Below are positions 5,630-54,945 of a stretch of DNA of 64,000 nucleotides, piece by piece. The notes below the pieces were generated by a model. It did no database searches. It was not told the DNA's origin and was given only the letters and a program-made list of their open reading frames with translations. The first letter of the stretch is position 1. Each line of letters opens with the position of its first letter. A program made the translations under genes and the position numbers. The DNA is from Mucor racemosus (lineage: Eukaryota; Mucoromycota; Mucoromycetes; Mucorales; Mucoraceae), in contig JAPEHQ010000011.1 of the NCBI GenBank assembly GCA_027405735.1, forward strand, positions 1,550,001 to 1,614,000, read 5' to 3'.

Positions 5630-7560
5630 TTTTTGTAGATATCTGGTCGAGCAAAAATGAAATTTTCATAGTTTTCAATCTTCAACATCGGAGCGTGCTC
5701 TCTTTTCTATAGCTAACTTCATACTAAACATTTTTAGAATATACTTTAGACACTACTAAACAGACATAAATTGGTCGCATTATGCTACCTATTCCTAAAT
5801 TTATTTTATATCTCACAAAGGCTAAAAAAAAAAACGCGTAAAATTCACTGCTTTTTCCTTGAAAACTGGGTCTCACTTTTCATCTCTGCTCTACTTTTTG
5901 TTTTCACTAGATAACACCAAGAAAAAATTATATGCCAATGTACCTGAGATGAACAGCTTTAATTTAAAAATAAATATTCCGAAATATCCTATTTTTTGCA
6001 GTTGGTATTAATTTTTCAGTGCTAATGTTTCAGATTTTTTACGTGTATTTCACTGCTAATGGATTGAAAACTTTGAGGTTTCATATCTCTAGGAACAATT
6101 AAGCTATACTAATACTTCCTAATAATAAAACTTACTTGTTTTAAAGCGCTCTATAACATATTTTAATATAAAAAGATTCTGAGCACTTTTATTTTTTTTC
6201 ATTTTTTTGGCATTTCTATAGTAGATTTCAAAATATTGGTTAAATTGAGCAATGCTTTTTTTACATTTATATCATCAAGCTTGTTGAGCTCTTTTAGACC
6301 CAATTTAGTTTTTTTAAAAATATTGATTTTTCGTGGAGATATCTTCAAAAATGTGTACAAAAAGGTACCTCCATTTCTGGCGTCCATTTTCCCCTTGTAT
6401 ACCCTCATCCCAAATTCTGAAACTGAAAAAAAATTGGACAAAACTTTTGATTTCTCTACGAAAAATGTAGCTAAAAACTTAAATAATAGCTCGATCGATA
6501 GATAATTTTTTTGCACATCATTACCATTTATTATATTTTAAATATACTTATAAAAAGTGTTCTGTATCTTCAAAAAACCTTCAAATTTTCAATTGCATTT
6601 TGCGCAAACTTTTATGTGAAACATTTTTTCAAATTTTATATAGATGGATTTAGAATTTAAAACTGTACAAAAACCATTTAATACGCTAGGTCTACTCACT
6701 TTGCAGTTCATGAGCATTTAAACAATTTTGTTTTTTGAATCATTTTTCGTCCTTTTTTTCATAACGATTTTGGGGCCCCGTTATGATAGGTTATAAGCTG
6801 TGATAAAAACTATTATTTTAATTATTTCGACGAAAAATCAATATTTTTTGCTGAAACAAAAATTGCAGAGTAGTTTTGAGCTGGATCTATCTTTTGAGTA
6901 TAAAAAATTAATACCTCAATTTAAGTGCTCCATTTTCCATAATCAATTTTAGGTCAATCTTAGTCAATTGTCTGGTCAATATTTGGCCAGTGCGCTTATA
7001 TACTGGTATTGATATTTCTATTTCCCGAGAGATATCAATGATCTATAGAAGGAACATACATCTACGTTGAATGTTTTACATAATTCGACTCAATATTGGT
7101 CGAAACCTTTTGAAAGCCATTTAAAACTCACTTTTCACAACCGTAAAAAATCGACAACGAAAACCAATATTTCAGCAAATTTCGAACCTAATAACTTCCG
7201 ACTTTAGGTTAGAGTAGGGACACATCTCTGAGACGCCGATCGCAAAGGGCAACGTTCATAATCTACAGTCTACTGTGTGTCGAGTGTCGAGAAAACCATC
7301 GCCAAAGTGCACATATAGCGCTTGCATGAGCGCATCCATTTGCGGAGAAAAAATGAGCTTATATAAGAACATCGGTGCTCTCAAAAGCGCATCCAGGAGG
7401 CCATAGTGGATATATGTATGGGCTATTCTAGATATTTTTTGAAAGTTTTTAATATAAAACCAAATAATGGTTTGAAATTGAATTTTGAAGTTGCATTTAA
7501 TTTGCAATAAAGTTATAAATAATATACCTTGATCTGATTATCTAACAGCTGTTTTTGAAG
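5630..7560. repeat. Dispersed repeat family A, copy 1 (most complete uninterrupted copy)
   Basis: About 1.9 kb that recurs at 19013-24545 (interrupted), 33030-35030, 41146-42845 (interrupted) and 53911-54945 (partial). Shared landmarks are CTTCAACATCGGAGCG near 5682, TACCCTCATCCCAAATTCTG near 6400, and a CGACGAAAAATCAATA block near 6828. Copies differ by point changes and small indels, so this is an old family. No transposase recognised. A minus-strand reading frame at about 6199-6516 is kept open in other copies (see findings). This copy gives empty sites for several later insertions in its relatives. Confidence 0.8.
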
Positions 7561-12959: not shown

Positions 12960-13282
12960 ATAGCTATTTCCTATTCTACTTGGTTGCTTGATTAAGGTTA
13001 TTCTCAAGTAAGATCTTATTTCAACTTTCAACCCAACTCAAGTGACAAATGTAGACATTTATTTTCGTTAACTAAAATGCCCAATAACTCTTGGTCGAGG
13101 AAAATCCTCTTTTTAAATATGTAAAATATATGAACTTATCTGATAAAATAGTGTCTTTTAATATACACTCGAATTACAGCATATATCCTCTATTATTTTG
13201 TGTCGAAGTCCTCGGAAGTCCCGGAAGTCCCCTACACGATTAGAACCCAGTATGCTAATAAGCTCACTTATTTGAGAAACAA

Positions 13283-13308
13283 CCGTAAATAAGTGCACTT
13301 ATTTACGG
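13283..13308. repeat. Perfect 26-bp palindrome near the Crypton end
   Basis: The sequence from 13283 to 13308 is its own reverse complement, centred on GTGCAC with arms CCGTAAATAA / TTATTTACGG. It lies about 90 bp from the element edge and downstream of the recombinase gene. The second unit has the same palindrome at 16189-16214. It could bind a recombinase dimer or help 3' end formation. Confidence 0.8.
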
Positions 13309-13526
13309 ATCAAGTCCCCAGGGAAAAAATAATAAATTTATGTCAATACAATCATGGCAAGATCGACTTTATTTTGTAAAATGTTATGCTTAGACTTCAA
13401 TATGATATTATGATACTTGTTGTATTTACAGTAAGCTGAATGATGTTTATTTATTGAATATATATGTATATATATAAAAATAATAATAAAATATAAAGAA
13501 ATGCAAAGAAAGAATAGAAAAAGCTA

Positions 13527-15886
13527 TTACAATGAGCCATCATTGACTCCAAAGATTTCAATTTTGTTATTCGCCAACCAATGCAACGAGTATCCTTTCT
13601 GTGATCTTCTTCGTTCTGCAATATTTACTGCAGTTTCTAAACTAATGTTCCTTTTCATGGCGTAATCCTCGATTGTCTTGATGATAAGTTTTCTTCTATT
13701 GAAGAACTTCTTTTCCTTCTCTGCTCGTCTCCATCTTGTTCCAAACTTTTCTTCCAAATCTTGTACCGCATATCCACCGCACAAACTATGTTTCCACTCT
13801 CTCCACAAGTCTTTGATGGACACAATTCCTCGACTCATTTGGTAATGTGGTACCTTTTCTGTAACTTCAAGAGAATTTGATGATGATGAGGATAATGTTG
13901 GTGGTTGTGGATTGGAATTTGACATCAAGTTTTGTTGTGGTTTTGTGGTTGCTGAGATGTGAGATTGGCCATTTTGTAAATCTGGTAAGTTCACGCTGAG
14001 GTTTATACTTGCTTGACCTGTAATTAGACGGGTTATATAATCATTAGTTGTTTCTTGAGTAGTGAGATGATCATTCAATTTTGAAGAAAGGTCATTATGC
14101 ATTATGCGTATCTTTTCCTCTAAAATTGGAACACAACGTTGGAGCAAAATGTTTGCAGGGTCATTGTTATCTTTCATGATCACTGTCATGCGTCTTTGAA
14201 GAAGATTTATTAGTTTATACTATATAAAACACAAACAAGTGCTTACTCTTTATATTCTAAAAACATAGGATTAGAAAACAATTCATTTTGCCATAATGGA
14301 TGATTGGGGAATTTCTCCATCATCACAATTGAATCTTGAATAATAATTTTTCTCAATATAAAAAACAGTTGAAAGCAAGCTTTTGCAGCCACGGTAACTT
14401 CCATAGGGTCACCATTATTCTTACCAACATTCTTAGCTAGTAATCGATCGTTCCATTCATCCAGTAGAGGAAAAATCAACTTGGTCAAATCTTCAGGAGG
14501 ATCCAGTGAGGCCCTGGGAATGTAAAATTGTCCTTGCTGAATAGTAAAACCCGCCATTGCTCGCATTGCTTCCCTGGGCAAACCAGTAAGGTAAGCACCA
14601 TTCATTGTTGTGTTATTCCAACGACCGAGACGACGAATTTGGTCTTCGTGAACACCAGCAAGATCAGCCATCCTCGCAGAAGAGCCACGGTTTATATGTG
14701 TTTTTGTTTTAGAGAAAATTTTTGCTCCATCTAATCCTCTTATAACGGCATCACGATGGCTGTTGTAGCTCCAGATTTTCTTTAAATCCTGGTTATCAGA
14801 TTTAAAAAGCTTTATAAAATACCAATTATGAGAAGTAGTGAAGTCGGGAAACGGCTCATTCTCAACATGAAAACGCCAAAACAAATATAGGCCAAGAGAC
14901 ATTATAGGGCAAATTTCAACGCGAGTGTTACGGATGCAGCCACCAAGTTCCAAGCGGTTATTTTTGTTTGTTTTTCCCTGTCGCAACACCATCACCAGAG
15001 CAGGACATTCTATGTCAGGCCTGATACTCTCATTATCTAAATTAACTGTTTGAAAATCTGTCAATTCAGCATGCCTGATAGATTGTCCTCGTAGTAGAAA
15101 ATAATGGGAGAAAAGAAATGCGGCAGCATCTCTCAAGTTTTCTCCATGATTTCTTTGGCTATTCAAATAGAACTGTATGACATTTGCTACTTGATCTAAT
15201 GAAGTATAACCATCGGCAAGTGTTCCTTCTCCACGATCTTCGCAATTAGATCTTTTGGTCTGGAATTCTCGTTCTTTAGCACTTTTCAATACGCTTGCAA
15301 TTACTTTTCTTGGATTTTTATTACAATTTATTTTCTTTATAACTTGTGTCTTGTATAGATCTGTAATTGCTGCTATGTATTGTTCGACAGTTGAAAATTT
15401 GATTCTTTGAGCTGCTTTTGTTTTCGTTTTTCTGCGAGAGAAACGATTTAAAACCTGGGATAATAAGGGCGTACAAGACAGTTAGTATCAAAAGCTAAAG
15501 TCATTAGCAATATTCTTTGCTTTCACCTCCTTGTGTAGAAAATAATTTAATTTTTCCCCAGAAACAATTCCTCTTTGCAATTTATCTTCATGTACAAAGG
15601 TTTTCTCTGCCCATGTAAGAAACTCTTTAGCTTTCGCTGAATATGCTTTTTTAGTGTTTATGGGCCTATTATCTTGAGCTTGTTCAGCAGTAATTTCAAG
15701 ACTCCTTGCCATGTCATATATTACATTGGAACCATCATTTTGGTTGTTGTCAACCATATCAGTATTGACCGTATCAATATCATTAGTGACAATCATATTG
15801 ATCATATCAATATCATTATCAATCAAGGTAGAAGATGAAGCGGACATTCTACTATCAATAGATGCAGCTGCAGTTTTCTTAGTCAT
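13527..15886 (-). CDS. Crypton tyrosine recombinase with GCR1_C DNA-binding domain (unit 1)
   Basis: Three exons: 15886-15527, 15454-14247, 14193-13527; 744 residues. Introns have good signals: TACTAAC branch site then CCCAG for intron 1, GTAAGC donor and CTAAT branch for intron 2. Tyrosine-recombinase residues, by my numbering: Arg at 242 or 247 (LLRGQSIR), Lys 281 (RQGKTN), H373-x-x-R376 (THINRGSS), Trp 399 (GRWNN) and nucleophile Tyr 408 (NGAYLTG). The C-terminal part (about 637-704, KVPHYQMSRGIVSIKDLWRE) matches the GCR1_C DNA-binding fold found in fungal Cryptons. No stop or frameshift interrupts it, so it could be active. Cryptons are thought to move by site-specific recombination through a circular intermediate. 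Confidence 0.88.
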
Positions 15887-16096
15887 TGTATAAGTGGATT
15901 ATTCTTTTTCAAATGGTTTGTTTATTATTTATTTGTTAAAATTAAGAATATTCTCTTCGATGACAGCTCTCAGTAATATTTATTTGTGAAACATTTCATG
16001 CAGAAAGCTGATCATAAGACATTTATTGATTTGAAGTCCCTCATTAGGGTGGGACTTGAGTCCGGGACTCAGTATGCGAACTTGAAGATAAGTCCC

Positions 16097-19002
16097 TATT
16101 ATTTTGTGTCGAAGTCCTCGGAAGTCCCGGAAGTCCCCTACACGATTAGAACCCAGTATGCTAATAAGCTCACTTATTTGAGAAACAACCGTAAATAAGT
16201 GCACTTATTTACGGATCAAGTCCCCAGGGAAAAAATAATAAATTTATGTCAATACAATCATGGCAAGATCGACTTTATTTTGTAAAATGTTATGCTTAGA
16301 CTTCAATATGATATTATGATACTTGTTGTATTTACAGTAAGCTGAATGATGTTTATTTATTGAATATATATGTATATATATAAAAATAATAATAAAATAT
16401 AAAGAAATGCAAAGAAAGAATAGAAAAAGCTATTACAATGAGCCATCATTGACTCCAAAGATTTCAATTTTGTTATTCGCCAACCAATGCAACGAGTATC
16501 CTTTCTGTGATCTTCTTCGTTCTGCAATATTTACTGCAGTTTCTAAACTAATGTTCCTTTTCATGGCGTAATCCTCGATTGTCTTGATGATAAGTTTTCT
16601 TCTATTGAAGAACTTCTTTTCCTTCTCTGCTCGTCTCCATCTTGTTCCAAACTTTTCTTCCAAATCTTGTACCGCATATCCACCGCACAAACTATGTTTC
16701 CACTCTCTCCACAAGTCTTTGATGGACACAATTCCTCGACTCATTTGGTAATGTGGTACCTTTTCTGTAACTTCAAGAGAATTTGATGATGATGAGGATA
16801 ATGTTGGTGGTTGTGGATTGGAATTTGACATCAAGTTTTGTTGTGGTTTTGTGGTTGCTGAGATGTGAGATTGGCCATTTTGTAAATCTGGTAAGTTCAC
16901 GCTGAGGTTTATACTTGCTTGACCTGTAATTAGACGGGTTATATAATCATTAGTTGTTTCTTGAGTAGTGAGATGATCATTCAATTTTGAAGAAAGGTCA
17001 TTATGCATTATGCGTATCTTTTCCTCTAAAATTGGAACACAACGTTGGAGCAAAATGTTTGCAGGGTCATTGTTATCTTTCATGATCACTGTCATGCGTC
17101 TTTGAAGAAGATTTATTAGTTTATACTATATAAAACACAAACAAGTGCTTACTCTTTATATTCTAAAAACATAGGATTAGAAAACAATTCATTTTGCCAT
17201 AATGGATGATTGGGGAATTTCTCCATCATCACAATTGAATCTTGAATAATAATTTTTCTCAATATAAAAAACAGTTGAAAGCAAGCTTTTGCAGCCACGG
17301 TAACTTCCATAGGGTCACCATTATTCTTACCAACATTCTTAGCTAGTAATCGATCGTTCCATTCATCCAGTAGAGGAAAAATCAACTTGGTCAAATCTTC
17401 AGGAGGATCCAGTGAGGCCCTGGGAATGTAAAATTGTCCTTGCTGAATAGTAAAACCCGCCATTGCTCGCATTGCTTCCCTGGGCAAACCAGTAAGGTAA
17501 GCACCATTCATTGTTGTGTTATTCCAACGACCGAGACGACGAATTTGGTCTTCGTGAACACCAGCAAGATCAGCCATCCTCGCAGAAGAGCCACGGTTTA
17601 TATGTGTTTTTGTTTTAGAGAAAATTTTTGCTCCATCTAATCCTCTTATAACGGCATCACGATGGCTGTTGTAGCTCCAGATTTTCTTTAAATCCTGGTT
17701 ATCAGATTTAAAAAGCTTTATAAAATACCAATTATGAGAAGTAGTGAAGTCGGGAAACGGCTCATTCTCAACATGAAAACGCCAAAACAAATATAGGCCA
17801 AGAGACATTATAGGGCAAATTTCAACGCGAGTGTTACGGATGCAGCCACCAAGTTCCAAGCGGTTATTTTTGTTTGTTTTTCCCTGTCGCAACACCATCA
17901 CCAGAGCAGGACATTCTATGTCAGGCCTGATACTCTCATTATCTAAATTAACTGTTTGAAAATCTGTCAATTCAGCATGCCTGATAGATTGTCCTCGTAG
18001 TAGAAAATAATGGGAGAAAAGAAATGCGGCAGCATCTCTCAAGTTTTCTCCATGATTTCTTTGGCTATTCAAATAGAACTGTATGACATTTGCTACTTGA
18101 TCTAATGAAGTATAACCATCGGCAAGTGTTCCTTCTCCACGATCTTCGCAATTAGATCTTTTGGTCTGGAATTCTCGTTCTTTAGCACTTTTCAATACGC
18201 TTGCAATTACTTTTCTTGGATTTTTATTACAATTTATTTTCTTTATAACTTGTGTCTTGTATAGATCTGTAATTGCTGCTATGTATTGTTCGACAGTTGA
18301 AAATTTGATTCTTTGAGCTGCTTTTGTTTTCGTTTTTCTGCGAGAGAAACGATTTAAAACCTGGGATAATAAGGGCGTACAAGACAGTTAGTATCAAAAG
18401 CTAAAGTCATTAGCAATATTCTTTGCTTTCACCTCCTTGTGTAGAAAATAATTTAATTTTTCCCCAGAAACAATTCCTCTTTGCAATTTATCTTCATGTA
18501 CAAAGGTTTTCTCTGCCCATGTAAGAAACTCTTTAGCTTTCGCTGAATATGCTTTTTTAGTGTTTATGGGCCTATTATCTTGAGCTTGTTCAGCAGTAAT
18601 TTCAAGACTCCTTGCCATGTCATATATTACATTGGAACCATCATTTTGGTTGTTGTCAACCATATCAGTATTGACCGTATCAATATCATTAGTGACAATC
18701 ATATTGATCATATCAATATCATTATCAATCAAGGTAGAAGATGAAGCGGACATTCTACTATCAATAGATGCAGCTGCAGTTTTCTTAGTCATTGTATAAG
18801 TGGATTATTCTTTTTCAAATGGTTTGTTTATTATTTATTTGTTAAAATTAAGAATATTCTCTTCGATGACAGCTCTCAGTAATATTTATTTGTGAAACAT
18901 TTCATGCAGAAAGCTGATCATAAGACATTTATTGATTTGAAGTCCCTCATTAGGGTGGGACTTGAGTCCGGGACTCAGTATGCGAACTTGAAGATAAGTC
19001 CC
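16097..19002 (-). mobile_element. Crypton-type transposon, tandem unit 2
   Basis: Exact 2,906-bp offset from unit 1 in every landmark I checked: all three exons, the palindrome, the end motifs and the core. I saw no base difference in the stretches compared, so the duplication is very recent or kept identical. The right edge is the core at 19003-19012, after which the sequence changes to CGTCAAATG, an older repeat (family A-like). Confidence 0.85.
16433..18792 (-). CDS. Crypton tyrosine recombinase with GCR1_C domain (unit 2)
   Basis: Same three-exon gene as in unit 1, shifted by 2,906 bp: 18792-18433, 18360-17153, 17099-16433; 744 residues with the same R, K, H-x-x-R, W, Y catalytic set and the same GCR1_C region. 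Because the units are head to tail, transcription of this copy runs toward the promoter of unit 1, and read-through would pass the internal junction core. Confidence 0.87.
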
Positions 19003-19012
19003 TATTATTTTG
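19003..19012. other. Crypton attachment-like core, right boundary
   Basis: Third copy of TATTATTTTG. Left boundary reads CCTC-core-TGTC, internal junction TCCC-core-TGTC, right boundary TCCC-core-CGTC. This is the pattern expected when circular DNA recombines with a short matching site: outer cores hybrid, inner core element-only. The predicted empty site is ATATATCCTC-core-CGTCAAATG. Confidence 0.7.
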
Positions 19013-19672
19013 CGTCAAATGAAACCTTTTAGACGCGTGGTTTTCTTTATGATCACTGCTTGATTTTTACTTTTTCAATGAAAAACGACAAAATAGGGAT
19101 TTACGTAAATGTACTGGAGATGTGCTAATTAAACACAATGTTTTGATATATTAAATTACTATTGTTCACTATAAGATAGAATAAATCCCTTAAAGAATTG
19201 AATTTAGGGTTTCACTGTTTTACCACTGCTAAAATTAAAAACTTTGAACCTTCATATCTCTACGAAAAACTAAGCTATACTAACACTTTCTAATAATAAA
19301 ACTTACTTGCTTTGATGCACTCTATAACATATTTCAGTACGAAAAATGCAACTAAAGGGTTCATCAATGGCTCGATTGATAGATAATATTATTGTGCATA
19401 ATTTGCATTACTTATATTTAAAATATGCTTATAGAAAGTGTTATGTATCTTCAAAAAACCTCAAGAATTTCAATTGCATTTTACGCAAAATTTAAGGTAA
19501 CAAATCTGTCTAAATTTTATTTAGATGAATGCAGAATCCAAAACTGTACAAAAACCATTTATTACGTTAGGTCGACTTCCTTTGCAGTTCATGAGCTATC
19601 AAAACATTTTGTTTTTGAATCATTTTTGGACCATTTTTACAAATCAATTTTAGACCCCAGTTATCATAGAAA

Positions 19673-20157
19673 CTGCAGTAAAATATGGGTGTAAAAAGCG
19701 ATAAAGAATACTGTTAAAATCCTTTTTTATTAAAATATGGATAATGTGCAATAAAATGGTTATTCTACGTCTCTATTTATATTATTTGGTGATTATTTAC
19801 TATCTTGCAATTGCATTGCAATTGTCAACGATTCCATTAATTTTTAGTATAAATGTTGGGTTGTTTGGTTATTGATTTGGTGGATCAAGAACGGTGTTTT
19901 AAATATAGTTTGTCAATCATGCTTTCAGAACAGCCCTTACTTGTTCTACTTGATAAGCATGTACTTTTTGTATCTTTTATTTACGATATCCCACATTACT
20001 TTAGTATTTTAGCATCTCTTATTTGAGTATTATACCCTTGCTATCTTTATGCAATTGTCTATTTACTATATAGTCTTATCTTTGATAGCATGGTTTCAAA
20101 TAAGATGACATTTAATTTAGGTATTTTATGATGGGAATCTAGCTTAGTTCACTCCAG
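19673..20157. mobile_element. 485-bp MITE, copy 1
   Basis: Ends CTGCAGTAAAAT and (reverse complement of the right end) CTGGAGTGAACT form imperfect terminal inverted repeats. It is flanked by AAA at 19670-19672 and 20158-20160. The uninterrupted family A copy at ~6790 has the same spacing without the insert, supporting a 3-bp target duplication. A second copy of exactly 485 bp lies inverted at 53951-54435. No coding capacity. Confidence 0.75.
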
Positions 20158-20983
20158 AAACAAAGCTGTAATATGAACTATTATTTTGATTATCTCGACG
20201 AAAAATCAATATTTTTTGCTGAAACAAAAATTGCAGAGTAGTTTTGAGCTGGATCTATCTTTTGAGTACAAAAAATTAATACCTCAATTTAAGTGCTCAA
20301 TTTTTCATAACCAATTTTAGATCGATCCTAGTCAATAGTCTAGTCAATATTTGGCCAGTGCGCTTATATGCTGATATTATTATTTCTATTTTCCGAGAGA
20401 TATCAATAGTGTATAGAAGAAAGAAGGAAAATACATACATCTGCGTTGAATATTTTACTTAATTTGATTCAATATTGGTTGAAGCTTTTCGAAAACCATT
20501 TAAAACTCACTTTTCACAACCACTACGGCCGAACTATTATGCTTCCCATAGGCATAATAATCTGCACAGATGGACAGAATAAAAAATTTTGTGCAGATCA
20601 GGCAGCCCAGATGATCAGAGCAATGAGGCCAAGGTTTTTTAGTCAATTTATTAAAGTATATCAATCATAATATAATTAATAATGAAGATAATTTGAATGG
20701 TTTAAAGCAGACGTGAGTTACTCTGATTCAACAGAATTGCTTTATTGACGAGATATACCGATTTGAAATTTGGGGTTTGAAAGAGTTCTGCACATGTTCT
20801 TCTTTCGGGGACCAAATGGGAACAACGACAGTAACCTGTTTGGGAACACTAAACGTATTTATGCCTTTGTAAATTCCTGTTTGTAACACACAAAATCTTT
20901 TTTCCTCTCTACTCTTTCCTCAGCTCTTTTATTCACGTTTAAAACTACAACAAAAAGACGAATATTTTTTTATAAACTGAAAT

Positions 20984-33029: not shown

Positions 33030-35030
33030 TTTTTTGTAGGTACCTACTCGAGCAAAATTTGAAATTTTAAAAAATTGAGCTTTCATAATAGTTTTCAATC
33101 TTCAACATCGGAGCGTACTCTCTTTTCTATAACTAACCTCATACTAAACATTTTTAGAATATACTTTAGACGCTACTAAACAGACATGAATTGGCCACAT
33201 TATGCTACCTATCCCTAAATTTATTTTATATCTCACAAAAGACTCAAAAACGCGTAAAATTCACTGCTTTTTTCTTGAAAACTGGGTCTCACTTTTCATC
33301 CTTGATCTACTTTTGTTTTCACTAAATAACACCAAGAAAACATTATATGCCAATGTACCTGAGATGTTCAGCTTTAATCCAAAAACAAGTATCCGGAAAT
33401 ATCCTACTTTTTGCAGTTGGTATTAATTTTTCAATGTTAAGGTTTCAGATTTTTTACGCGTATTTTACTGCTAATATATTGAAAACTTTGAGGCTTCATA
33501 TCTCCAGAAAAAATTAAGCTATACTACCACTTTTTAATAATGAAATTTACTTGTTTTGAGACGCTCTATAACATATTTCAATATAAAAAAATTCTGAACA
33601 CTTTTATTTTTTTTCATTTTTTTGGGCATTTATATAGTAAGTTTCAAAATATTGGTTAAATTGAGTAACATTTTTTTTGCATTCATGTCATCTAGCTCGT
33701 TGAGCTCTCTCAGACCCAATTTAGAGTTTTTCGAAATATTAATTTTTCGTAGAGATATACTCAAAAATATGTACAAAAAGGTACCTCCATTTCTGGCGTC
33801 CATTTTTCCCTTGTATACCCTCATCCCAAATTCTGAAACAGAAAAAATTTTTGACAAAAATGTTGTTTCCTCTACGAATAATGCAGCTACAAAATTTTGC
33901 AATAGCTCAATCGATAGATAATTTTTTTGTGCATCATTTTAATTTATTATATTTTAAATATGCTTATAAAAAGTGTTCTGTATTTTTAAAAAACCTCCAA
34001 AATTTCAATTGCGTTTTGCGCAAAATTTTACGTGAAAAAGGTTTTCAAATTTTATATAAATAGATGCAGAATTTAAAACTGTACAAAAACCATTTAATAT
34101 GCTAGGTCTACTTATTTTGTAGTTCATGAGCATTTAAACAATTTTGTTTTTTGAACCGTTTTTCGTCTGTTTTTTCGTAACGATTTTGGGACCCCGTTAT
34201 GATAGGTTATAAGCTGTGCTAAAAACTATTATTTTGATTATCTCGACGAAAAATCAATATTTTTTGCTGAAACAAAAAATGCAGAGTAGCTTGGAGTTGG
34301 ATCTATCTTATTTGAAGATTTTACATAATCCGACTCAATATTGGGTGAAAACATTCGAAAATCATTTAAAAACCATCCGAAACCTACTTTTTACAATTGT
34401 AAAAAATCGATAACAAAACCCTATCCCAGCGAATCTCGACCCTAATAACTTCCAACTTTACATGAGAGTAGGGACGCATCTTTGACACGCTGATCTCAAA
34501 GAACAACTTTGACAATGTACTGTGTGTCGAGAAACCCATCGCCAAATTGCACATATAGCTTACTGCACGTATATCACACATTTTATTGAAAACAATAATT
34601 AAATGCGATCTCTATGAATAATGATCCAAGTAAGCTATCGCTCTTCATGGATATAGGTATAAATGTGTACTACAAGTTTCTCGGATATCAGCTTCCATGG
34701 GTCCTTGTGCATTCGGTAGGTTTGGACAAAAAGTTAGCTGCTTGCTATTTACGGCTACTAAGATCAGTAAGCTCACCAGTTCTCGACGAATATGAACCCA
34801 AATGACCTCCCGTTGCGATGGCAGGTATTTCTAGTGTTGACCCATAGAATTGAAAAAGGTTTAGTCTCCTGATTTGCTGTTGAAATGGAGAAAGAAAATT
34901 CGTAATTGTCTAAACTATGTTGTATGAATTGTTTTAGATATTCTTTATAAAATGAAATAACGGTTCAAAATTGAATTTTAAAGTTGCACTGAATGTACAG
35001 TAAATTTAAGAAAAACACATCTTGATCTAA
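33030..35030. repeat. Dispersed repeat family A, copy 2
   Basis: Aligns with copy 1 from GAGCAAAATTTGAAATTTT through the CTTCAACATCGGAGCG and TACCCTCATCCCAAATTCTG landmarks, with a ~200-bp internal deletion around 34305 relative to copy 1. It adds a right part with an open frame 34647-34805, then the ATTGAATTTTAAAGTTGCACTGAAT block also seen near 7475 and 54855. The minus frame 33902-33630 stays open. Confidence 0.8.
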
Positions 35031-35255
35031 TTAGGCGTAATTCCAAAGAAATGCCACCTAAATAGTTTACATGGTTTACAAATGTATGATAAAGCAAATA
35101 AAGCATTTTTAACATATACTGTAGCATATCTAGTTTGTGCAAAAAAAAATCTTTTTAAAAAAGTATATATAAAATACTCACTTGAATCACTCTAATGCGC
35201 AAATAAAAATTACTCAAAACAGGAAACAAGGTTTATTTATACATAAAGAAATTAA

Positions 35256-40251: not shown

Positions 40252-41145
40252 AATTTGCTCGCCTGCAGTGAACAACAACAACCCGACTTCTATTTCTTAC
40301 ATACATGACATTCTATTTACATTTTAATTTAAACTTTTTACATATCACGCTTTTATACATATCTCTTTCTTTCTTTCTTTCTTTGAAAAAAGTTGAAAAT
40401 CTTCACTTTTTGTATCTATTGTATTTCCCACTTTTTTTTTCCTATAAAAATTAGAAATAAATATATAATAATTTTATCAATCAAAAGATTTTCAAGTAAG
40501 CTCCAAGCAATTAATTTTTAAAATAAAGTAATTTAGCAAAATCAAGCAACCCACCAATCTAACATTTAGATTCAAAATTACGGAATAACTGACAGTCGAT
40601 GGAACAACTACCAGAAAATATTAATGACCAGATAATATAAATAAAGTAGTATAAGTGGTGTTTTATTCATACTATAATAAATAATATAAACAATATCTCT
40701 TTTAGAGATCTTTTATCAAAATTAACTCCCTTTATAGTACCTCCCTTAATGGCTCAGTGAGCTGTATATATTTGCAATTCCAGAAGACAGAAACAAACAT
40801 CTACTCAATGAAGGTAACCGTATGTATGGCACCAACGGTCTTGATTTCAGCTTTTACTGGCCATTGTGCTTTGAGTAGACTAAAAGACCTCGTTAATAAC
40901 GTGTTATTTACATTTACTGAAAACAGTAATGAAAACTCATTTTCAACCCAAATTAGCTCAAATTATTCAACGATATATAGGTAATAGTCAAAAGTATCTT
41001 TCACAATCGGTCCAATGTTCAGCCTCCATGAACTGTTGTGAGATGTGTAAAAGGGAAACGCCGAATTGACAAGCTTTATTAGCATGCTCTAATACGCAAG
41101 GAAAAAGTTACAATCTACAACTTAAAATGTATTTTGACTTTTTTT
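40252..41145. other. Intergenic, nothing recognised
   Basis: 3' flank of the NDUFA4-type gene, pyrimidine-rich near 40365-40445, then AT-rich DNA with only short ORFs up to the start of family A. Confidence 0.5.
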
Positions 41146-42845
41146 TTTTTTTGTAGGTACTTGCTCGATCAAAATTTGAATCTTCAAAAATTCAACTTTC
41201 GTAGCTTTCTTCAAAATTGGACCGTGCCCGCTTTTCTATAACTAGACCATACTAAACAGACATGAATTGGTCACATTATGTTACCTATCCCTAAATTTAT
41301 TTTATATCTCACAAAAGACTCAAAAACGCGTAAAATTCACTGCTTTTTCCTTGAAAACTAGGTCTCACTTTTCATCCTTGATCTACTTTTTGTTTTCACT
41401 AAATAACACCAAGAAAACATTATATGCCAATGTACCTGAGATGTTCAGCTTTAATCCAAAAATAAGTATCCAAAAATATCCTACTTTTTGCAGTTGGTAT
41501 TAATTTTTCAGTGTTAAGGTTTCAGATTTTTTACGCGTATTTTACTGCTAATGGATTGAAAACTTTTAGGCTTCATATCTCTAGAAAAAATTAAGCTATA
41601 CTAACATTTTTTAATAATAAAACTTACTTGTTTTAAAGCGTTCTATAACATATTTTAATATAAAAAAATTCTGGGCACTTTTATTTTTTTTCATTTTTTT
41701 TGGCATTTCTATAGTAGGTTTCAAAATATTGGTTAAATTGAGCAACATTTTTTTTGTATTTATGTCATCCAGCTCGTTGAGCTCTCTCAGACCCAATTTA
41801 GAGTTTTTCAAAATATTAATTTTTCGTGGAGATATCCTTAAAAATGTGTACAAAAAGGTATCTCCATTTCTAGCTTCCATTTTTCCCTTATATACCCTCA
41901 TCTAGGAATGGGCTTCGATTCGAGTTTGAATCGAGTTTTAACGGAAACGGCCATTCGATTCGAGTTGGAAAACGGCCCGTTCTTTTGTAACCCAGATAAA
42001 AAACGGGGTGGGAGCAAGTATTGGTTTGCCTTAAGGAGGCTGTTAATAGCAACATTGTCAAGTTAATATGGGATTATGAATTGATAATAGCATATTTGAC
42101 AGTTTCACAACTTGAAGTATTTTTTCAATCCTGTTTTCGAGCTTAGCTAACAAAAAAAGAAAAGAAGAAACTCGAATACCCTCATTCGAGTTTGCATAAA
42201 AAACGGCCCGTTAAAGCAGTCAAACTCGGTCAACCGTAATACGATGCGTTGTTTGCGAAATCCTACCCTCATCCCAAATTCTGAATCTGAAAAAAATTGA
42301 ACAAACATCTTGTTTTCTCTGCGAAAAATGTAACTAAAAAGTTAAATAATAGCTCGATCGATAGATAATTTTTTGGCGCATTATTTTAGTTTATTATATT
42401 TTAAATATGCTTATAAAAAGTGATGTGTATCTTCAAAAAACCTTCAAAATTTCAATTCCATTTTACGCAAAATTTAATGTGGAATGCTTGTCTAATTTTT
42501 ATTTAGATGGATGCAGAATTTAAAACTGTACAAAAACTACTTAATACGCTAGGTCACCTTACTTTGCAGTTCATGAGCCATTAAACAATTTTGTTTTTTT
42601 GAATCATTTTTCGTTCCTTTCAACAAATAAATTTTGGAATCCCGTTAGATAGATTATAAGCTGTGATAAGAATTAGTATTTTAATTATTTCGACGAAAAA
42701 TCAATGTTTTTCGCTGAAACAAAAAATGCAGAGTAACTTAAGAGTTGGATCTATCTTGTGAGCACAAAAAGTTAATACCTCAATTTAGATGCTCAGTTTT
42801 TTATAACCAATTTTAGGTCAATAATTTTGGTCAATTTTGGCCGAT
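41146..42845. repeat. Dispersed repeat family A, copy 3 (interrupted)
   Basis: Matches copies 1 and 2 from GGTACTTGCTCGATCAAAATT to about 42845, with the hAT-type MITE inserted at 41903-42265. Its right end is replaced by a family C LTR, and a right-end piece of family A reappears inverted at 43388-43567. Confidence 0.78.
41903..42265. mobile_element. hAT-type MITE, 363 bp
   Basis: Starts TAGGAATGGGC and ends AAATCCTA (inverse TAGGATTT), so short TIRs TAGGA. Flanked by an 8-bp duplication CCCTCATC at 41895-41902 and 42266-42273. The uninterrupted site TACCCTCATCCCAAATTCTG in family A copies 1 and 2 has it once. 8-bp duplications and TAG-type ends are hAT hallmarks. Internal CATTCGA(T)TCGAGTT and AACGGCCCGTT motifs occur near both ends. 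Confidence 0.85.
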
Positions 42846-53366: not shown

Positions 53367-53906
53367 TGTTGTATGCCACCAAGTACCATATGTATCACCT
53401 TCTACAGTATCAACACATCTTAAAATCTATTGACTACGACATGTATTGAAGTGTGAAGACTTGATATCGGATATAAGAAACTCCTAGCGTACCGAGTTTA
53501 ATCCAGTAACTACCAAGAACGCTTGGACCTCAATTATGACACCATATTATTTCATCCCAGCGGTTAATCAATCAAGTAGCTATCAAATCAACATCCAAGC
53601 ATATTTAGCGCAGCATTGAAACAAGACAACTGACAACTCACAAGCTCTGCAAGAACGGTTAACTTATCATTGATCCATTTAAATCCATAGATTACTATCA
53701 AACAGATCCAATGGTTTAATAGTACTTTAAATTACATTTCAGATCTTAATGTCAAATGTCAAATCAATATAAATGGCCCTACTTTTATATCTAAATAAAC
53801 GAGATCTTGTTTTTATTATGCAGCTGAAGAACTAACTCATTATTCATTCTCTTTTAATTGCATTCTTTTTTTAAGTATTATTTATCAATCCTGAAAATAT
53901 ACGATA
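53367..53906 (+). mobile_element. Solo LTR, family C, copy 3
   Basis: 540 bp, TGTTGTATGCCACC to ATATACGATA (terminal CA changed to TA). Same TATA/AATAAA layout as copy 2. Flanks TACTA and AGCAT do not match. Sits at the truncated left side of a family A copy. Confidence 0.68.
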
Positions 53907-53910
53907 AGCA

Positions 53911-54945
53911 TTTCAATTTAGGAGCTTGATTTTTTATAATTGATTTGAGACTGAAGTGAACTAAGCTAGATTCCCATCATAAAATACCTAAATTAAATGT
54001 CATCTCATTTGAAACCATGCTATCAAAGATAAGACTATATAGTAAATAGACAATTGCATAAAGATAGCAAGGGTATAATACTCAAATAAGAGATGCTAAA
54101 ATACTAAAGTAATGTGGGATATCCTAAATAAAAGATACAAAAAGTACATGCTTATCAAGTAGAACAAGTAAGGGCTGTTCTGAAAGCATGATTGACAAAC
54201 TATATTTAAAACACCGTTCTTGATCCACCAAATCAATAACCAAACAACCCAACATTTATACTCAAAATTAATGGAATCGTTGACAATTGCAATGCAATTG
54301 CAAGATAGTAAATAATCACCAAATAATATAAATAGAGACGTAGAATAACCATTTTATTGCACATTATCCATATTTTAATAAAGAAGGATTTTAACAGTAT
54401 TCTTTATCGCTTTTTACACCCATATTTTACTGCAGAGACCAATTTGAGGTCAATATTAGGCCAGTATACGTATATTCTGTTATTAACAACACTTCTATTT
54501 TGGTACAAGTATTAATAGCCCATGATATATTACAAGTATTTCAGATACCAGCATCGATATGGGACATTGAGCATTCGATACATTTGAACAATTAGTTGGT
54601 TACCTGCTATTTACATCAATTAAAGTCAGTAAGCACATCAGTTCTCACTGAGTATTATGGATCCAAATGAGCTCCCGTTGCAATGGTAGATATTTCTACG
54701 GTTTATCAACAGGATCATAAAGTTTCCACCTCCCCGAGGAGTTCCCTTGAGGATGGAAAAATGGAAGCAGCCGCTTTCTCCACCTAGTTTGTCTGGGTTA
54801 TTTCAGATATTTTTTGAAATTTTTTTACAAAATCAAACAATAGTTCGAAATCAAATTTTGAAATTGCACTTGATGCGCAGTGAAAATACGAATAACTCAT
54901 TTTAATTTCATTTGCTAACAGCTTTTTTGAAAGAGTGTGCTGTAT
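53911..54945. repeat. Family A copy 5 (right part), split by a MITE
   Basis: Family A sequence at 53911-53950 and 54436-54945, interrupted by the 485-bp MITE. Its counterpart of the small conserved frame is broken by a stop (TACATTTGA region near 54580). Confidence 0.68.
53951..54435 (-). mobile_element. 485-bp MITE, copy 2 (inverted)
   Basis: Same length and ends as the copy at 19673-20157, opposite orientation: CTGAAGTGAACT at the left, ATTTTACTGCAG at the right. Flanked by AGA on both sides (53948-53950, 54436-54438). Confidence 0.75.

Follow-up and report, generated by a model that had tools for sequence, protein, structure and literature searches.

How the tyrosine-recombinase transposons of eukaryotes move and multiply is an open question. 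It is posed in a concrete form by the window analyzed here, a stretch of 64,000 nucleotides of the Mucor racemosus genome in which two Cryptons lie head to tail: by what route did two units come to stand side by side, and what does their arrangement say about the way in which such elements integrate?

The tandem pair and its recombinase gene

An identical 2,917-bp tract is present twice in the window, at 13190-16106 and 16096-19012, with an offset of 2,906 bp, and the two units show 0 differences in 2,895 aligned positions; the two 2,906-bp units at one exact offset reported in a preliminary description of this DNA are thus borne out. An 11-bp core, CTATTATTTTG, lies at 13190, 16096, and 19002. 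The preliminary description had placed a 10-bp core at the three boundaries; the three sites are as it gave them, but the core is longer by one base. Exact matches to CTATTATTTTG number five in the window, compared with 0.17 expected from shuffling, and the two that fall outside the Crypton pair are both in a dispersed repeat. The order of the sites is host/core/left end, right end/core/left end, and right end/core/host, and the flanks agree with the earlier proposal that the outer sites are hybrids while the inner one is derived from the element only. The features of the pair are as follows.

13190..16095, minus strand (gene strand): Crypton unit 1, 2,906 bp with one core counted; exact repeat at offset 2,906
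16096..19001, minus strand: Crypton unit 2, identical to unit 1
13190..13200, plus strand: left outer core, hybrid (attL-type); host flank ATATATCCT, core, element left end
16096..16106, plus strand: middle core, element-only (attP or circle-junction type); element right end, core, element left end
19002..19012, plus strand: right outer core, hybrid (attR-type); element right end, core, host flank CGTCAAATG
13283..13308, no strand: 26-bp perfect palindrome CCGTAAATAAGTGCACTTATTTACGG, near the unit 1 left end; again at 16189-16214 in unit 2

The unit has no terminal inverted repeats and carries short direct core repeats at its ends. When the ends inside the cores are compared as inverted repeats, 5 of 20 positions match, and the best local inverted match within the end 100 bp of the unit was equaled in 117 of 500 shuffles. 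Around the core, arms in inverted repeat are weak (7/11 at best), and we claim no arm sites for the recombinase. The unit contains the hexamer AAGTCC six times, always at most 125 bp from an end. The count of the most frequent hexamer near the ends was reached in 46 or 121 of 5,000 simulations, depending on the model, and is thus unusual to a modest degree only. The 26-bp palindrome, which also surfaced as an opposite-strand self-match in the genome search, could be an operator or a hairpin. A promoter and terminator scan with a bacterial tool gave no excess over shuffles, and neither a tRNA nor an RNA family scoring at the gathering threshold was detected in the window.

The gene runs on the minus strand and is predicted to have two GT-AG introns, of 72 and 53 nt, with the branch-point-like sequences CTAAC / CTAAT; their removal preserves the reading frame and connects three open frames, which together encode a 744-aa protein. 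The predicted exons are these.

15527..15886, minus strand: exon 1, unit 1; GT-AG introns, frame kept
14247..15454, minus strand: exon 2, unit 1; tyrosine-recombinase (NDC10_II) domain with R247, H373, R376, and Y408
13527..14193, minus strand: exon 3, unit 1; GCR1_C DNA-binding domain
18433..18792, minus strand: exon 1, unit 2; unit 1 coordinates + 2,906
17153..18360, minus strand: exon 2, unit 2; unit 1 coordinates + 2,906
16433..17099, minus strand: exon 3, unit 2; unit 1 coordinates + 2,906

Once the two predicted introns are removed, the coding region is uninterrupted in both window units. The protein matches NDC10_II (Pfam PF16787, 2e-55) and, at its C-terminus, GCR1_C (Pfam PF12550, 4.1e-23). 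The three ORFs scanned contain no other transposase family, two weak matches (E 0.13 and 0.28) falling below the cut-off, and DUF3435 is absent from the Pfam matches up to E 1. In an alignment of 17 proteins, comprising the query and 16 of the 18 homologs found, the column of R247 holds 13 R and 4 gaps, that of H373 15 H, 1 S, and 1 gap, that of R376 15 R, 1 C, and 1 gap, and that of Y408 15 Y and 2 gaps; by the usual motif rules, we take these residues to be the R-H-R-Y tetrad. An AlphaFold2 model of exon 2 (mean pLDDT 83) has the DNA-binding domain of yeast Ndc10 as its best fold match (E 9e-9, TM about 0.5, rmsd 12). The three fold matches with E < 0.001 are all Ndc10, and Cre/Tre recombinases come next, from E 0.003. 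The catalytic tyrosine is located in a low-confidence stretch of the model (279-286, ending at the tyrosine). A PDB sequence search with the recombinase returned nothing credible, although the fold search did match.

Homologs with both domains are present in Mucor saturninus (57% identity) and Absidia glauca (51 and 47%) and also in Rhizopus delemar and Phytophthora nicotianae; every named match that combines the two domains comes from a fungus or an oomycete. The CryptonF elements have been described in fungi and oomycetes, mostly with terminal direct repeats of 6 bp and without terminal inverted repeats (Kojima and Jurka 2011, PMC3212892). As they are described there, the present element is like them in its protein with a tyrosine recombinase and GCR1_C, its lack of terminal inverted repeats, and its short direct repeats. 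Each unit reads as an intact fungal Crypton and probably belongs to CryptonF, of which it shows, as predicted from sequence, the defining features that are open to testing. The earlier claim of intact Cryptons holds, since the coding region is complete in both units and the domains match. Among the best 120 of 292 matches, the adjoining AFG3-type protease is 91% identical to a Mucor plumbeus protein (98% covered), 92% to a Parasitella parasitica protein (85% covered), and 98% to one further protein; these matches mark the host as Mucor-like.

Junctions and target sites across the genome

The window is part of a 53.2-Mb assembly of 54 contigs, in which a one-unit query has at least 41 near-full-length matches, a count that includes both units of pairs and contig C33 (40 of 42 candidates were scored). 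Across the genome, the left end of the unit is matched exactly 42 times and once more with 3 mismatches, and the right end exactly 41 times and once more with 1 mismatch. All 41 near-full-length matches were retrieved, together with four partial or diverged places, and 40 of the 41 were aligned; L040 was omitted, its left end being without 10 bp and hence without the exact end string. The recombinase frame is intact in 36 of the 40 units. Copy L041 (C13:744054-751617), which an insert of ~1.6 kb splits near unit position 1032, contributed only to the reading of junctions. By the preliminary description, other copies with boundaries elsewhere or without the core would have counted against its reading, and this is not the case: ends and core are shared.

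More distant Crypton-like recombinase matches, at 27-38% identity, lie at C8:1675934, C5:909471, C8:1696434, C2:693776, C13:890703, C4:2644648, and C26:258932, among others, and because of them other Crypton families seem to exist in this genome. In these seven, the matched stretch is interrupted by stop codons, possibly because it includes introns.

Both junctions were read at 33 loci, a set from which C33 (a second version of the C2 locus) and L040 are excluded. At the left junction, position 1 differs from the element core in one of the 33 loci and positions 2-11 in none; at the right junction, positions 1-6 differ in none, and one or more of positions 7-11 differ in 11. Because target bases persist on the outer side of each junction, strand exchange can be placed inside TATTA (core positions 2-6), the left limit of the interval resting on one locus, L019/L021. 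The core is indeed shared, but judging from the 33 loci, only TATTA, rather than the whole core, would be exchanged. Direct repeats of 4 or 6 bp have been described for Cryptons, and the TATTA interval fits these (PMC3212892).

The junction anatomy at most loci is that the core ends up on both sides and target bases are not lost. Flanks joined by a script align through the core in one piece to empty copies in the window at three of the four loci tried. At L023/L024 (C1:3700557-3706378), the joined flanks break at the core and ~27 bp of the repeat is missing, so that precision is not demonstrable for every insertion; in the right flank of this locus, the core is joined to a point ~27 bp later in the repeat, which could reflect a small deletion in the target or during the event.

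Left flanks lie in a dispersed repeat at 30 of the 33 loci and both flanks at 29, and the repeat-borne insertions, when compared on one strand, are at the same base and in one orientation. The loci outside the repeat (4 of 34) are the window pair, L009, L019, and, by eye, L040. By eye, three older or partial copies (L042, L044, and L047 at C7:73533) likewise have a left end within the repeat, which points to a preference of long standing. The window itself contains both empty sites and copies of the repeat.

20178..20188, plus strand: empty target site in the dispersed repeat, with the same flanks as filled sites
34226..34236, plus strand: empty target site in the dispersed repeat
6810..6820, plus strand: empty target site in the dispersed repeat, last core base A
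5653..6893, plus strand: copy of the target repeat, 89% identical to 33071-34309
33071..34309, plus strand: copy of the target repeat

Five ORFs, from the copy at 5653..6893 and the other copy, have no Pfam match. Fragmented copies of the target repeat and neighboring repeats occupy 5653-7319, 19224-20521, 33071-35033, 41070-42836, and 53393-54435 of the window. An empty version of the window pair's own site has no match in the assembly at up to 3 mismatches.

The signature of the repeat site occurs 1,967 times in the genome with at most 3 mismatches (reversed control, 0) and is thus far commoner than the filled loci found. The exact core occurs 1,325 times (reversed control, 387), in 760 cases with the repeat signature, and 34 to 41% of exact cores lie outside the repeat. 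An exact right core is present in 22 loci, of which 21 are in the repeat; this bias has a binomial P of 0.0014 or 0.00016. Further contributions to the specificity may come from flanking bases, from chromatin, or from selection against insertions elsewhere.

The predominance of a single repeat position could also be read passively: a repeat that already held a Crypton would have been amplified, carrying the element along. However, the left flanks of the other repeat loci are only about 75-92% identical to that of L003, while units from different loci differ by a median of 8 in 2,895 positions, and the site signature is present far more often than it is filled. We consider passive amplification extremely improbable, and it was rejected because the flanks have diverged while the units are nearly alike. 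For the same reason, the repeat-borne insertions appear to be separate events.

Origin of the head-to-tail pairs

Tandem Cryptons had been regarded as rare, and in this genome they are not, since head-to-tail pairs occupy 7 of the 33 loci. In all seven, the middle junction is identical and lies exactly at the core, where the two units are joined without any host DNA in between. Furthermore, the units within a pair are identical in 7 of 7 cases, compared with 21 of 496 pairings between loci (32 loci, which carry 21 unit haplotypes), and none of 100,000 permutations with random pairings gave five or more identical pairs. Two of the pairs have variants that are found at no other locus (one and three variants, respectively) and are present in both units. 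Since 12 of the 25 single loci also have private variants, their sharing does not separate local duplication from the relocation of a dimer. Unit-specific changes, in turn, are absent from the 14 paired units. The 25 single units average 2.16 private changes (median 0), with 13 having none and L039 alone having 20, and when single units were resampled, sets of 14 draws were all zero at a frequency of 9e-5, with units treated as independent. Given this absence of unit-specific change, the pairs would be young or would be kept alike by turnover or conversion.

One locus has been assembled in two versions. Contig C33 (26,814 bp) has one unit where C2 has two; its ends map to C2:1577102-1579107 and C2:1549372-1551382, a C2 span of 29,736 bp, so that the difference in length is about one unit. 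The 1.5-kb flanks in C33 match C2 except for one homopolymer-length indel on each side. Either both the one-unit and the two-unit states are present in the sequenced culture, or C33 is a by-product of assembly. This discrepancy could be taken to mean that the tandem arrangement is itself an assembly artefact, and identity within pairs can be a product of polishing. However, there are pairs at seven separate loci that differ in their flanks, and in every one of them the middle junction falls on the same base; these pairs lie in contigs of 1.1 to 7.1 Mb, and two of them hold the variants absent from all other loci. Consequently, we regard an artefact as very unlikely.

The model that we favor, with a probability of roughly 0.8, is that the element is an autonomous CryptonF in which a circle-type site recombines with a chromosomal core by exchange in TATTA, that the repeat is the preferred partner, and that the pairs arise from one parental molecule. 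In this model, the substrates of the tyrosine recombinase would be a circle-type site (right end-CTATTATTTTG-left end) and a similar core in the chromosome. Strands would be swapped inside TATTA, leaving the core on both sides without loss of target bases. Integration would mostly take place at one position of the high-copy dispersed repeat and occasionally at another site whose core is similar, as with the window pair. A pair might then form by the integration of a dimeric circle, by action of the recombinase on the left outer site of one sister chromatid and the right outer site of the other, or by re-integration of a sister's circle, and pairs may convert between one and two units. The action of the enzyme, the circle, and the order of events are what we infer here; the circle-type junction is seen only inside the seven pairs.

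The junctions of a pair would be the same whether it came from a dimeric circle, from two successive circles, or from exchange between the outer sites of sister chromatids. The preliminary description had offered a dimeric circle or the repeated integration of circles. Of these, the dimeric circle fits; repeated circles from unrelated copies are disfavored because the units within pairs are identical, and sister-chromatid exchange, which was not among its two routes, fits as well. Thus, although the successive integration at the same core of two independent circles from different source copies would leave the same three-site anatomy, so that junctions do not exclude it, it must contend with identical units in every pair despite the many haplotypes, and with locus-private variants held by both units of two pairs. 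We judge it quite unlikely. Identical units could also result from gene conversion, from assembly polishing, or from several integrations from one active source.

A further alternative is that the recombinase has no part in making pairs, which would come from homologous unequal crossing-over or from a generic segmental duplication. The units are tandem and identical, as this would predict, and once a pair exists, repeats of 2.9 kb recombine readily; recombination of such direct repeats could also reduce a pair to one unit with no involvement of the recombinase. However, the short core repeat that flanks a lone unit is too short for ordinary homologous exchange, and the middle junctions of all seven pairs fall precisely at the core without intervening host flank, so that this origin seems unlikely. 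An origin of each pair from a single molecule, on the other hand, is in our view quite probable, with no firm choice made between a dimeric circle and sister exchange. More speculatively, and with the odds rather against it, pair formation by either of these two routes might be a regular step of the life cycle, through which a nominally conservative recombinase would gain copies, with the site in the high-copy repeat serving the element as a safe haven.

Relation to known systems

In phages and other integrative elements with tyrosine integrases, recombination of attP with attB yields attL and attR, tandem copies may occupy one site, and where core homology is partial, the sites are told apart by the origin of their flanks. 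The present element differs from these systems in its eukaryotic host and in the number of its partner sites, roughly two thousand. Starships are defined by their giant size, their cargo, and a captain with DUF3435. As far as published descriptions of them were covered, they are like the element here in being fungal tyrosine-recombinase transposons with short direct repeats, but they are giant and carry cargo, whereas this element is 2.9 kb long, with one gene found, NDC10_II, and no DUF3435. Their recombinase domain has been described as very distantly related to that of Cryptons (PMC12134995), and the circular intermediate proposed for them has, according to PMC12506042, not been shown by any work to date.

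For Cryptons, a circle has been proposed by analogy with prokaryotic elements (PMC3212892). Compared with the CryptonF elements as that paper describes them, the present element, with exchange inside the 5-bp TATTA, is alike in its short repeats; what differs is that its insertions are concentrated at one position of a high-copy repeat, that pairs are present at 7 of 33 loci, and that its ends are fixed by 33 loci in one genome. Related behavior is known from TATE, a kinetoplastid tyrosine-recombinase retrotransposon that forms clusters of tandem copies, all at one relative position within telomeric repeats (PMC6681497). TATE, however, is a retrotransposon in telomeres and not a Crypton, and the likeness drawn here is one of clustering. 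The literature searched, covered in part (PMC3212892, PMC12810828, PMC12506042, PMC6681497, PMC3522703, PMC12134995, PMC2699053, and PMC3627910), yielded neither Cryptons in tandem nor a Crypton restricted to a single repeat, a mention in the body or supplement of a paper being possible.

For the question of how these transposons move and multiply, this genome provides seven instances of a circle-type junction, a large supply of naturally empty targets, and a candidate crossover interval of 5 bp. With copies that are mostly intact (36/40) and one locus assembled with one and with two units, each step becomes directly testable, and the recurrence of tandem pairs in the genome makes the supposed circular intermediate itself testable.
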